DNA of 64,000 bases from Candidatus Zixiibacteriota bacterium (GTDB lineage: Bacteria > Zixibacteria > MSB-5A5 > WJJR01 > JAJRUJ01). The translations under genes were made by a program, and so were the position numbers. Shown here in pieces: positions 4,911 through 14,336 of the stretch. The stretch's first letter is position 1. Each line of letters starts with the position of its first letter. Location of the stretch: positions 1 through 64,000 of the forward strand of contig JAGVQM010000017.1 in assembly GCA_020051695.1 (NCBI GenBank), in the 5' to 3' direction. The notes under the pieces were generated by a model, which was not told the origin of the DNA, did not search any database, and saw only the letters and a program-made list of their open reading frames with translations.

Positions 4911-5768
4911 ATGAATATTGTGGAAATCTACAAAAGGTATCCAACGGAACATGATTGCATTCAATACCTTGAGAGGGTCCGGTGGCAGGGCAAACCGACT
5001 TGCCCATACTGTAACTCTCCTAAAATCAATACCTTGAAAAAGGAAAACCGATACCATTGCAATACCTGCAATACTTCGTTTAGCGTCAAAGTCCGCACCG
5101 TCTTTCATCGTTCAAGAGTGCCCTTGCAAAAATGGTTTCTGGCTATTAGTTTGATCCTGAACGCCAAGAAGGGCCTTTCGGCCCGGCAGTTGGCGCGGGA
5201 TATTCAGGTTGATAAAGATACGGCATGGTCGATGGGTATGCGTATCCGTAATGCAATGGTCAGCCAGCGCGAGTTATTGTCCGGGATCGTGGAAATGGAC
5301 GAAACTTTCGTTGGTGGAAAACCGCGCAAGACCAGATTCGGCGGGTCTGCTCCTCATGGTAGGGGAACTAAAAGACCTTCAGTGTTCGGGATGATTGAAC
5401 GGGGCGGGAAAGTCAAAGCTGAATACGTCAAAAAACCGAAGATAAGAAAAATGCACGAACTGGTACGGGCCAATATTGATTGCTCCAAATCTACCCTGAT
5501 GACTGATGAATTCGGCGGATTCAGGTATATTTCTCAAATCATAGATCATAAAACCGTGAATCATCGGGTTTGGTATGTGGATGGCGATTGCCATACAAAT
5601 TCAATCGAGAGTTTTTGGGCAATCCTGAAACGCGGTATCACCGGTCAGTACCACAAGGTGAGCGTTCGGTACTTGCCGCAGTATTTGAATGAATTCTGTT
5701 ACCGATTCAACAATCGTAAAAATGGTGATGTTTTTGTGGAAACACTTAATAAAGCGGTGGGGGCATAA
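4911..5768 (+). CDS. IS1595 family transposase (ISXO2-like)
   Basis: A 285-residue transposase. Residues ~30-60 form a zinc ribbon (CPYC...CNTC), as is standard for the family. The catalytic core follows: VEMDETFVGG (first Asp, ~128), LMTDEFGG (second Asp, ~200) and HTNSIESFWAILKRGI (~228-243, holding the third acidic/Asn position), then the RYLPQYLNEFCYRFN block characteristic of ISXO2-like DDE domains. The frame is intact and at full family length, so it is probably active or recently so. The stop overlaps the next start in a TAATG, coupling it to the P63C gene. Confidence 0.93.
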   Translation: MNIVEIYKRYPTEHDCIQYLERVRWQGKPTCPYCNSPKINTLKKENRYHCNTCNTSFSVKVRTVFHRSRVPLQKWFLAISLILNAKKGLSARQLARDIQVDKDTAWSMGMRIRNAMVSQRELLSGIVEMDETFVGGKPRKTRFGGSAPHGRGTKRPSVFGMIERGGKVKAEYVKKPKIRKMHELVRANIDCSKSTLMTDEFGGFRYISQIIDHKTVNHRVWYVDGDCHTNSIESFWAILKRGITGQYHKVSVRYLPQYLNEFCYRFNNRKNGDVFVETLNKAVGA

Positions 5769-6673
5769 TGGAAACAAAACTTCCTAAAGCAATTTTTGGA
5801 TCACCAGATCGACCGCTCCGCATTGGAAACCTCGAAATACCATGTTACGTCCTGGAAGATGGCAAGAGAGTCCTTGTGCAAGGTGGTATGTTGCAATCTC
5901 TTAATATGTCGCAAGGCACTGGCAGTCGATCTTTGGTCGGGGGTGATCGATTAACCAAATTCATAGGAGGAAAGCGAATTAAGCCATACGTTACCAAAGA
6001 GTTAGCGGATATGATCAAAAATCCAATTCATTTTACTATGTCAAAGGGTGGAACTGCGTACGGATATGAAGCAACCGTGCTAGCTGACTTATGCGATGCT
6101 GTTCTTGCGGCCCGTGAAGCTGGTATATTACAGCCACACCAGCAAGCACATATTGCTAAACAGTGCGAAATCCTAGTTAGGGGCTTTGCCAAAGTCGGTA
6201 TTATAGCACTTGTCGATGAAGCAACAGGTTATCAAGAAGTACGGGATAGAGAAGCTCTCCAAAAAATCTTGGACAGGTATATCACTGATGAATGGGCAAA
6301 ATGGACAAAAACATTTCCTGACGATTTTTACAGACATCTATTCCGGCTAAAGGGATTACCATACCCGCCGCCAGCGTCGGGGAAAAAACCAAGTTATGTG
6401 GGTCACTGGACAAACGACATTATCTATTCTAGACTTGCACCCGGAGTCTTGCAAGCACTTAAAGATAAAACACCAAGATTGCCATCCGGTACGCGCGTTA
6501 GAAAATTCCACCAATCCTTAACAAGAGATTATGGCCATCCTGCACTGAAAGAGATTTTGACGAACGTAATATTTCTTATGAGAGGTTGCACTACTTGGAA
6601 AGACTTCAAGCGAATGCTGGAAAGATCGGCTCCTCGATATGGGGATACTATACCTATGGATTTAGACATTTAA
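5768..6673 (+). CDS. P63C domain-containing passenger protein
   Basis: A 301-residue soluble protein whose start codon overlaps the transposase stop (TAATG). The N-terminal half (GSPDRPLRIGNLEIPCYVLEDG..., ~10-130) and the C-terminal half (~155-290: an ATGYQEVRDREALQKILDRY helix, then SYVGHWTNDIIYSRLAPGVL and YGHPALKEIL) match my memory of P63C-domain proteins found in phages and mobile elements. The molecular role of the domain is not established. Translational coupling to the transposase makes it a stable cargo or helper of the element rather than a random neighbour. Confidence 0.8.
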   Translation: METKLPKAIFGSPDRPLRIGNLEIPCYVLEDGKRVLVQGGMLQSLNMSQGTGSRSLVGGDRLTKFIGGKRIKPYVTKELADMIKNPIHFTMSKGGTAYGYEATVLADLCDAVLAAREAGILQPHQQAHIAKQCEILVRGFAKVGIIALVDEATGYQEVRDREALQKILDRYITDEWAKWTKTFPDDFYRHLFRLKGLPYPPPASGKKPSYVGHWTNDIIYSRLAPGVLQALKDKTPRLPSGTRVRKFHQSLTRDYGHPALKEILTNVIFLMRGCTTWKDFKRMLERSAPRYGDTIPMDLDI

Positions 6674-7790: not shown

Positions 7791-7882
7791 TCGTCACCTT
7801 CTCCGTCGCATATTTTTTGTTATCCGCCAACGATTTTCTTCCGTTACGCAGTATCATCTGAGACATGTAAAAGGAGGGTACT

Positions 7883-8368
7883 ATGTGGCATAAATCACTC
7901 GCAGCGGTTGCCCTGATTATGATTCTGGGGACGGCGTCCACGGCCTGGTCTCATTGCCAGATTCCGTGCGGAATTTATGACGATGAAACTCGCTTTACCA
8001 TGCTGGCCGAACACATCACGACCATCGAAAAATCGATGAACGAAATCATCCGGCTCTCTGTCGCTGCCGAAAAGGATTTTAACCAGATCGTCCGCTGGGT
8101 GAACAACAAGGACACCCACGCCGACGAATTTTCCGACATTATCACCTATTATTTTATGGCCCAGCGAATTACGCCGGTCGAGGATGGGCCGACCGATGCT
8201 TTTCGCGACTACCAACGCAAAATCATTCCGTTGCACGGACTACTGGTTTATGCCATGAAAGCGAAACAGACCGCTGATTTGGCCCATGTCGAGAAATTGC
8301 GGTCGTTGCTGGCCGATTTTCGGACGGCATATTTCGGCCCACAGGACGAACAAAAACTCGGGGAATAG
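7883..8368 (+). CDS. sodN: nickel superoxide dismutase with a Sec signal peptide
   Basis: 161 residues. The first 23 form a classic signal peptide ending in TAWS, and the mature chain would start HCQIPCGIYDD, the nickel hook of Ni-SOD: His1, Cys2, Pro5, Cys6 and Tyr9 are all present. The helical remainder fits the four-helix bundle of the hexameric enzyme (mature length ~138). In Streptomyces the hook is exposed by a dedicated SodX protease acting on a short propeptide. Here signal peptidase cleavage would itself create N-terminal His1, and no SodX gene is nearby. The enzyme should act in the periplasm, removing superoxide. AAAGGAGGG precedes the ATG. Confidence 0.92.
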   Translation: MWHKSLAAVALIMILGTASTAWSHCQIPCGIYDDETRFTMLAEHITTIEKSMNEIIRLSVAAEKDFNQIVRWVNNKDTHADEFSDIITYYFMAQRITPVEDGPTDAFRDYQRKIIPLHGLLVYAMKAKQTADLAHVEKLRSLLADFRTAYFGPQDEQKLGE

Positions 8369-11885: not shown

Positions 11886-14336
11886 TTACATGGCGTACGA
11901 TTTCGGACTCAGACTCGAAACAAAATCGACCAGGTCGGCGGCGATTTCCCCGACGCTCTGGAACCGTTCGTATGGATCTTTCGCCAGACACCGCAGGGTG
12001 ACGACCTCGAAAATGCCCGGGATGTTCTCGTCGATTTCCGTGGGTTTAATCGGGTCGCTGTTTAGGATGTTGTAGATCAACTGGCTGATGTTCTCGCCGG
12101 TGAACGGTTTTTGATGTGCGATGAGTTCGTAGATTACCACGCCGAGACTGAAGATGTCCGAACGGTGATCGACTTTCTCGCCCCGTAGCTGCTCGGGTGA
12201 GATATAGCTCGGGGTACCGAGGGCAATTCCCGTTTGTGTCATTGTGGCATTGGGCTGTTCCAGCCGGGCGATGCCGAAGTCCGCGACTTTTATTTCAAAA
12301 TTGTCGAGGACCAGGATATTGGCCGGTTTGACGTCGCGGTGGACGATGCCCTGCTTATGCGCATAATCGAGCGCAGCGCAGACCTGCATGACGATTTTGG
12401 CCAGGATCTTGTAATTCAGGGCTTGTTTCTTTTTGACGACCTCTTCAAGGGTGTAACCCTCGACAAATTCCATGGCGATATATTCCAGATCGCCTTCATT
12501 GCCCACGTCGTAAATTGTCACAATATTCGGGTGGGACAGCCGGCCCACCGCCCGCGCCTCGCGGTAAAACCGTTCGCGCAGTTCCGCCGACTCTTCCGCA
12601 TTGGCCTGGGCGCCGAATCGGACGGTTTTCAGGGCTACGGCCCGGTCGATGGCCGGGTCTTTTCCGCGATATACAGTACCCATCGCTCCCTGGCCGACCA
12701 GCTCGATGACCTCATATCGCCCGAGTTGGCGGGGAATGGCGGCCGGTGTATTGAGGATCGGGGCCGGGGTCGCCTCGCGCGGCGGCGGCTGCGGTTGCAG
12801 AGCGTGGATGGGCGGCATGGAGTTGTTGGCAATACCGCCCGCCGGCGGCCGACTGCCGTGCCGCCTTGCATCTTCGATGACGTCGTCGGTGATGACCTGG
12901 GTCGCGGCCAGCTCTTCCTTGGTGATCATGCCGCTGCGGACTTTGGGACGGGCCGGGCGCATCACGTTACTGCGCTGTCCGGGTTTGCCGATGGAACTTA
13001 CCCTGGGCATCTGCACTGTCCGGCGCGCAGCCGTCGCGGGTTGTTTATCGAGCGCGTCGGCTGCCGAAGTCCGCAGTTTGACCAGCGGCGAGAGGACCAG
13101 GAACAGGAGCACTTCCAGCGACGGGTATAACGTCTTGGTTACCAGATGGAACGATGAATATAAAATGTAGTTCATATTAATGATGATAAACAGGAAGACG
13201 GCCAGTACCACGATCCGGTATTGCAGGGTGATCCGGGGCAGCACAACCCCACAGAACAAGCCGATCGCGGCCAGGATCAGCAACTCCAGAAGCCCGGTGA
13301 GGTTGGCCTGGGCGATGAACCGCTTGCGCATGATACTTTCCACGGCATTGGCGATGCGTTCGGAGCGATGCATCACGGGTGAGGCCGGTGTCCGGACGGT
13401 GCCGACATAATTGCCGGCGGTCACGCCGACGATGACGACTTTGCCCTTGATCAATTCGAGGTTCGCGTTACCCTCAAGGATGTGCCCGGCCGAGATGGAG
13501 GGAAACGTGTGCGGTCCGCCCCAATATTCGATCAACATCCGGCCCCGGCTGTCGGTCGGGACTTGCAGATGCCCGATCACCACTTCCCGGCCGGGATTGA
13601 TTTTCATCTGCGGCCGATGAATGTCCAGGGCGGCGCGGACCAGCTGCACCGCCATCGACGGATAGTATTCGCCGGCGTATTTGACCACTAGCGGGTCGGT
13701 CCGGACAATTCCGTCCGGTCCGGGGACGGAATTGACATGCCCCAGGTTCCACGCTGCTTCCGAAACCGCCTGTGACGGGGCGCGCACATGATTGGCTTGA
13801 AGCGGTGGATAGTCCAACAAGCCCCGGCCGTCATCAGCGATAATATACGTACTTTTCGAAATGCCCGGAGGCGTCGTCGCGCCCGAAATCGGTTTATCGG
13901 AAATATAAAAATCAAGGGGAGTTATCACGTTCCCGGCGCGCTGGATGACCCCGGAGAGGAATTCATTGCCCTCCCAGTCGATTTCACCGTATACCGGCAA
14001 TTCGAAATCCAGGCCGATTGCCGCGGGTTTGTACTCGGCCAGCATGCCGATGAGGTAGCCGATACGTTCGGCGTCCCAAGGCCATTCGCCGATCTTATCG
14101 ACGGCCGCATTGTCGATGGGAACCAAGACCGTGCGGTTGGGCACACCCTGCTGCCGCCCCAGCTGGATCATCTTATCCTGGATCTTCAACTCCAGACCTT
14201 CCAGCCAGTCGTGGCGGTCGAGGTAGAGGATGACGACCAGCAGGGTGACGACGACATACAACAAAAATGGCGTGGAGCGCGTCAGGCCGGGGTTGTTCCC
14301 CAGCAGTGACCGCAGCTGTATCCTGGGTAATTTCAT
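11886..14336 (-). CDS. CHASE2-domain transmembrane Ser/Thr protein kinase
   Basis: 816 residues. An N-terminal membrane helix (~22-42) leads to an extracytoplasmic CHASE2 sensor domain (~45-345; note PIDNAAVDKIGEWPW and VGVTAGNYVGTV). About three membrane helices (~350-425), a Pro/Ala/Arg-rich linker and a C-terminal Hanks-type kinase (~545-800) follow. Kinase residues are intact: GQGAMGTVYRG (P-loop), VALKTV (Lys), IVHRDVKPANIL (catalytic loop), VADFGIARL (DFG) and GTPSYISPEQL (activation end). It should phosphorylate Ser/Thr in response to an external signal. It ends the FHA-phosphoesterase-kinase operon, and the FHA protein is a natural phosphothreonine partner. Confidence 0.93.
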   Translation of the reverse strand: MKLPRIQLRSLLGNNPGLTRSTPFLLYVVVTLLVVILYLDRHDWLEGLELKIQDKMIQLGRQQGVPNRTVLVPIDNAAVDKIGEWPWDAERIGYLIGMLAEYKPAAIGLDFELPVYGEIDWEGNEFLSGVIQRAGNVITPLDFYISDKPISGATTPPGISKSTYIIADDGRGLLDYPPLQANHVRAPSQAVSEAAWNLGHVNSVPGPDGIVRTDPLVVKYAGEYYPSMAVQLVRAALDIHRPQMKINPGREVVIGHLQVPTDSRGRMLIEYWGGPHTFPSISAGHILEGNANLELIKGKVVIVGVTAGNYVGTVRTPASPVMHRSERIANAVESIMRKRFIAQANLTGLLELLILAAIGLFCGVVLPRITLQYRIVVLAVFLFIIINMNYILYSSFHLVTKTLYPSLEVLLFLVLSPLVKLRTSAADALDKQPATAARRTVQMPRVSSIGKPGQRSNVMRPARPKVRSGMITKEELAATQVITDDVIEDARRHGSRPPAGGIANNSMPPIHALQPQPPPREATPAPILNTPAAIPRQLGRYEVIELVGQGAMGTVYRGKDPAIDRAVALKTVRFGAQANAEESAELRERFYREARAVGRLSHPNIVTIYDVGNEGDLEYIAMEFVEGYTLEEVVKKKQALNYKILAKIVMQVCAALDYAHKQGIVHRDVKPANILVLDNFEIKVADFGIARLEQPNATMTQTGIALGTPSYISPEQLRGEKVDHRSDIFSLGVVIYELIAHQKPFTGENISQLIYNILNSDPIKPTEIDENIPGIFEVVTLRCLAKDPYERFQSVGEIAADLVDFVSSLSPKSYAM

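Follow-up and report, generated by a model that had tools for sequence, protein, structure and literature searches.

Nickel superoxide dismutase (Ni-SOD) has been described as cytoplasmic and as dependent on SodX for its maturation. In the canonical SodN/SodX systems of Streptomyces and Prochlorococcus (PDB 1q0d, 1t6u), the N-terminal His of the enzyme has to be freed. In canonical Ni-SOD, the ring of this His1 is held by Arg47 and by Glu17 of a neighbouring subunit; peptide mimics of the enzyme lose their activity upon N-acetylation, i.e. when the N-terminus is blocked, which indicates a requirement for a free amino terminus (PMC5722923). Cyanobacteria bearing sodN without sodX have been read as possibly unable to use Ni-SOD (PMC8346466).

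As search bait, a study from 2025 (PMC12537917) employed a planctomycete Ni-SOD signal peptide that ends in ASA before the His, and many Ni-SODs were retrieved with it. The part of that study considered here uses the signal peptide only, and a treatment of SodX, clade structure or maturation was not found in it. Even so, Ni-SOD with a signal peptide has to be regarded as an already known architecture. The initial annotation, which set such an enzyme apart from the known systems, was hence right about its existence and not about its novelty. According to the same part of the study, removal of a signal peptide also creates a metal ligand in LPMO, CopC, DUF4198 and anglerases (PMC12537917). The folds of these proteins are unrelated to that of the enzyme analysed here and none of them is a superoxide dismutase.

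The window, i.e. the whole stretch of 64,000 nucleotides that was analysed, carries a sodN-like gene at positions 7883-8368, which is the only Sod_Ni gene of its genome. Comparison of the gene product with Pfam Sod_Ni (PF09055) yielded 90.1 bits (cut-off 25, E 2e-25). The precursor consists of MWHKSLAAVALIMILGTASTAWS followed by HCQIPCGIYDDETRF, and the mature part opens with HCQIPCGIYDD (Table 1). It had been annotated as a Ni-SOD with a Sec-type signal, cleavage of which would leave the hook of His1, Cys2, Cys6 and Tyr9 at the N-terminus. Both points agree with our analysis, as the hydrophobic leader of 23 residues ends in A-W-S and the residues HCQIPCGIY directly follow the predicted cut between Ser23 and His24. 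The same arrangement is found in the Ni-SOD of the planctomycete Roseiconus lacunae (WP_230780104.1), the bait of the 2025 study (PMC12537917), in which the signal peptide MTRLLTATLALMFTASIASA stands directly before the His of a Pfam Sod_Ni protein; the likeness concerns signal peptide and architecture.

Table 1 Features of the sodN-like gene and its predicted product in the window
Feature	Position	Strand	Basis or remark
sodN-like gene, precursor of a putative exported-class nickel superoxide dismutase	7883..8368	+	PF09055 match, 161 aa
Shine-Dalgarno AGGAGG	7872..7877	+	read in sequence; 5 bases upstream of ATG
Sec-type signal peptide (predicted) MWHKSLAAVALIMILGTASTAWS, 23 aa	7883..7951	+	without twin-arginine motif
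Ala21-Trp22-Ser23, triplet predicted to be recognised by signal peptidase I, with the cut behind Ser23	7943..7951	+	leader matrix
Nickel hook His1-Cys2-Gln-Ile-Pro-Cys6-Gly-Ile-Tyr9, predicted mature N-terminus	7952..7978	+	alignment, 99 Ni-SODs
Mature enzyme (predicted), 138 aa, four-helix bundle	7952..8365	+	AlphaFold, Foldseek

We read these features jointly as those of an exported Ni-SOD that depends on Sec, signal peptidase I and nickel loading outside the cytoplasm, and assign this reading a probability of about 0.8. The precursor would cross the Sec channel unfolded, after which ordinary signal peptidase I would cut behind Ala-Trp-Ser and free the amino group of His1 for nickel. The cleaved chain would fold and take up the metal outside the cytoplasm, and its activity would be the removal of superoxide in that location. 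Signal peptidase I would be the counterpart of SodX, which does this job for the cytoplasmic enzymes.

Ni-SOD loci for comparison were obtained from three sources: the phylum of the window, in which 31 of 133 genomes encode Ni-SOD, GTDB genomes scanned with a pattern in an undirected manner, which provided 118 loci with names, and four other phyla, whose genomes were searched in full. The loci were divided into two classes by residue 11 of the mature domain only. Class D, the group of the window, follows HC[EQ].PCGI[YF].D and class P, the canonical group, follows HC..PCG.YDP. All 92 class D loci were found to encode a hydrophobic leader (Kyte-Doolittle maximum over 10 residues of 1.9 or more), whereas the leaders of class P are short and non-hydrophobic, with a maximum below 1.9 in 117 of 118 loci. 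The sole exception, locus L147, has a leader maximum of 2.12, yet sodX adjoins. Medians of leader hydrophobicity, determined in smaller sets, are 2.87 for class D and 0.92 for class P.

The neighbourhood of the genes separates the classes as well. A local SodX profile derived from 36 ORFs adjoining canonical sodN detected SodX next to sodN in 104 of 118 class P loci versus none of the 92 class D loci. Among loci flanked on either side by 1.3 kb or more, the values are 74 of 77 and 0 of 76, respectively. For most of the canonical loci seemingly devoid of sodX, either the contig ends there or SodX is encoded at another place of the genome. Three loci of Gammaproteobacteria (L224, L225, L227) encode a canonical enzyme with the hook HCDIPCKIYDP and, as seen by eye, an S26-like ORF just downstream; they were missed by the hook pattern and left out of the class counts. 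The exported group is set apart by its hydrophobic leader together with the missing sodX. A survey of signal peptides against sodX, as suggested along with the initial annotation, therefore gave the expected pattern, and a sodX linked to a window-type sodN in relatives, named there as counter-evidence, did not turn up in any of the 92 loci.

Since the seeds of the local profile were drawn from class P loci, the curated model TIGR02754 (SodX) provides an independent check. None of the 133 genomes in the phylum of the window, 31 of which carry sodN, gave a match above its cut-off, and neither did any of 15 named class D genomes of other phyla, where the best match reaches about 24 bits and is partial and signal-peptidase-like. 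Among 18 class P genomes, 16 gave a full-length SodX match, 9 of them above the cut-off. The genome of the window is likewise free of matches above the cut-off, which extends the earlier statement that no sodX-like gene lies nearby to the entire genome. A SodX located elsewhere in this genome was considered and rejected, as those weak TIGR02754 matches that were checked proved to be genes for signal peptidase I (TIGR02227: 159, 149 and 122 bits). The genome harbours several signal peptidase I paralogues, one of which might be dedicated to the Ni-SOD. In two Chloroflexota genomes with canonical Ni-SOD (L080, L124), only signal-peptidase-like TIGR02754 matches were observed, L124 being situated at a contig end; loss of SodX or incomplete genomes are possible explanations.

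The mature part of the window protein, modelled with AlphaFold together with 98 relatives, forms four helices (pLDDT 91.4, pTM 0.84). A Foldseek comparison with the PDB yielded Ni-SOD chains as all of the top 11 matches, with a probability of 1.0 and TM-scores of up to 0.82 (normalised to target length). This comparison of folds matters because solved Ni-SOD structures are retrieved weakly by sequence search alone. In the alignment of 99 Ni-SODs, His1, Cys2, Pro5, Cys6 and Gly7 are invariant, while Tyr9 is kept in at least 90% of the sequences. The position of Tyr62 is occupied by Tyr in all 44 aligned members of class D, and Arg39, Lys44 and Glu/Asp45 are also kept in the exported class.

Fold and equivalents of His1, Cys2, Cys6, Tyr9 and Tyr62 are thus common to the window enzyme and canonical SodN, and in both the N-terminal His would have to be freed. 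The two differ in that the window enzyme shows an identity of about 16-19% to canonical SodN, bears a Sec-type leader instead of a short propeptide, lacks SodX and has several changed second-shell residues. Substitutions that distinguish class D from class P are Asp3 to Glu/Gln, Trp59 to Val/Ile, Asp61 to Gln, Lys64 to Met/Leu and His67 to Arg. The position of Arg47 is always His in class D, a residue that is common there in class P too, and Glu17 of the canonical enzyme has no clear class D counterpart in the alignment. Changes of second-shell residues and of the hydrogen-bond partners in the His1-Glu17-Arg47 contact could affect the activity. Against the curated sodN equivalog TIGR02753, the window precursor scores 30.4 bits and the mature part 26.8 bits, which is below the cut-off of 90. 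At E 1e-24 this model matches 55 of the 99 aligned members, a number identical to that of the class P members in the alignment. The window protein is a member of Sod_Ni with Ni-SOD fold and ligands that falls outside the curated canonical sodN group; it probably binds nickel and catalyses superoxide dismutation.

Replacement of the second-shell residues throughout class D and scores below the curated sodN cut-off would also suit an exported protein with Ni-SOD fold and hook that serves chiefly to bind or deliver nickel (or copper) outside the cytoplasm without being a superoxide dismutase. An N-terminal His also occurs in other exported proteins that carry metals, as reported in the part of the 2025 study considered here (PMC12537917). 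Nevertheless, we regard such a carrier as unlikely. All metal ligands, Tyr9, the Tyr62 equivalent, Arg39, Lys44 and Glu/Asp45 are kept, and the fold is the same as that of Ni-SOD. Moreover, neither recurring nickel transport genes nor a conserved gene with a nickel role were found among the neighbours of the class genes, and the genome of the window is otherwise devoid of a leader-bearing superoxide dismutase. It encodes two Fe/Mn superoxide dismutases, both without signal peptide, and no CuZn superoxide dismutase was found in it, so that the Ni enzyme is the only superoxide dismutase found with an export signal. Its proposed job is that of the periplasmic copper-zinc enzyme SodC, an exported superoxide dismutase beside cytoplasmic Fe/Mn enzymes; SodC differs from it in fold and metal and is the very enzyme absent from this genome.

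The leader of the window protein features a positive n-region with Lys/His, a strong hydrophobic core and a polar c-region. Its cleavage site was judged by our own leader statistics, by sliding of the register and by a leave-one-out leader matrix. Residue -1 is small (A, S, G or T) in 86 of 89 class leaders and residue -3 is mostly small or aliphatic. The (-3,-1) rule holds exactly at the hook in 85 of the 89 leaders, and in just 13-38 of them when the register is slid by 1-8 residues. A matrix derived from the 88 other leaders scores the Ser23|His24 cut at 10.8 bits, while the next-best cut in the window precursor, within the hydrophobic core, reaches 3.7 bits. The initial annotation had likewise placed the cut between Ser23 and His24, and a predicted site elsewhere, named there as counter-evidence, did not turn up. 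By our own scoring, n-region, core and (-3,-1) site correspond to a Sec/signal peptidase I substrate, and signal peptidase I is present in the genome. The arrangement of leader and hook is not a product of chance.

Two other export routes were rejected. Tat export does not fit, given that a twin-arginine motif is absent from the window leader and no Tat-like motif occurs in the 89 class leaders. Processing of a lipoprotein by signal peptidase II is at odds with the His ahead of the hook Cys2, as a lipobox has a small residue at that place.

The position of the AWS site stands, whereas its diagnostic value by itself does not. Canonical leaders processed by SodX likewise end in V-S-A/V-x-A or A-x-A ahead of His-Cys, because SodX is related to signal peptidases, and a shared A-x-A/S site alone is therefore no proof of export. 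This resemblance, together with several S26-type genes in the genome, could be taken to mean that the leader represents a propeptide removed in the cytoplasm by a SodX-like protease, which would be encoded elsewhere in the genome and have escaped detection. Such a propeptide is very improbable, however, since the S26 genes that were checked are full signal peptidase I genes, the search that recovered no SodX above the cut-off in 133 genomes of the window's phylum does detect it in canonical genomes, and the leader resembles a signal peptide in its hydrophobicity in every class member. An uncut signal peptide that anchors the protein in the membrane with a non-functional hook is scarcely credible, as the small -1 residues are locked to the hook far above other registers and selection would keep the hook for nothing.

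An exported Ni-SOD is also in line with the distribution of class D. In an unrooted tree of 202 mature domains (143 columns, quick search), a single branch with an SH-aLRT value of 100 splits class D from class P. The nearest relative of the window enzyme stems from a MAG labelled Omnitrophota (L096). Named hosts of class D belong to Thermodesulfobacteriota, Planctomycetes, Bacteroidota, Gammaproteobacteria, other proteobacteria and Omnitrophota. A named isolate with the gene is Desulfoluna limicola (L075). Actinomycetota, Chloroflexota and Archaea, in which class P is plentiful, contribute no named class D locus. The host phyla of class D are diderm, and seven Omp85 matches in the genome of the window point to an outer membrane. 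Three genomes of Planctomycetota, G265 (L170, L211), G334 (L166, L212) and G356 (L167, L213), encode one enzyme of each class, and SodX adjoins the class P copy only, not the class D copy.

Three class D loci of Planctomycetota (L219, L220 and L221), which form one clade, deviate from the common arrangement. A spacer of about 15-20 residues separates signal peptide and hook, and residue -1 before His-Cys is L, R and R, respectively. Owing to this spacer, cleavage by signal peptidase I would not suffice to expose the hook; exposure would need another protease, or else the hook would not be exposed. A third processing step may operate in this subgroup. A description of the subgroup was not found in the literature searched, nor was an account of the dichotomy of leader and SodX, part of which may be contained in the 2008 sodN survey or the 2004 SodX paper.

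A wider picture is conceivable, in which Ni-SODs of two compartments mature by two routes that exclude each other. The exported branch, spread over diderm phyla, would use general signal peptidase I and would have to load nickel outside the cytoplasm, and the planctomycetal subgroup would add its third step. As a whole this picture is tentative, and we would put the odds somewhat against it. Given that SodX and signal peptidase I are related, one of the routes may derive from the other; for example, SodX may be a tamed signal peptidase that let Ni-SOD move into the cytoplasm.

If export holds true, Ni-SOD would be a periplasmic superoxide dismutase in many diderm bacteria, and the exported branch would be a place to study nickel loading outside the cytoplasm. 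The inference that organisms lacking sodX are defective would be wrong for this branch, in which the missing SodX accompanies a signal peptide. The exported branch would also offer a simple expression system, as E. coli should process the precursor without an added protease.

With regard to gene context, eight genomes of the window's class (L002, L006, L008, L011, L020, L021, L023, L024) have the gene at a conserved position in the vicinity of YajC-, peptide deformylase- and Fmt-like genes, the neighbours being named by eye from translations. This setting is absent at the sodN gene of the window. Upstream of the latter, an IS1595/ISXO2-type transposase followed by a P63C-domain protein was observed (4911-6673), and rearrangements may take place at this locus. 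The minus strand of the window encodes a fusion of a CHASE2 sensor with a Ser/Thr protein kinase (11886-14336); genes for a phosphoesterase and for an FHA protein lie upstream of this fusion on that strand.
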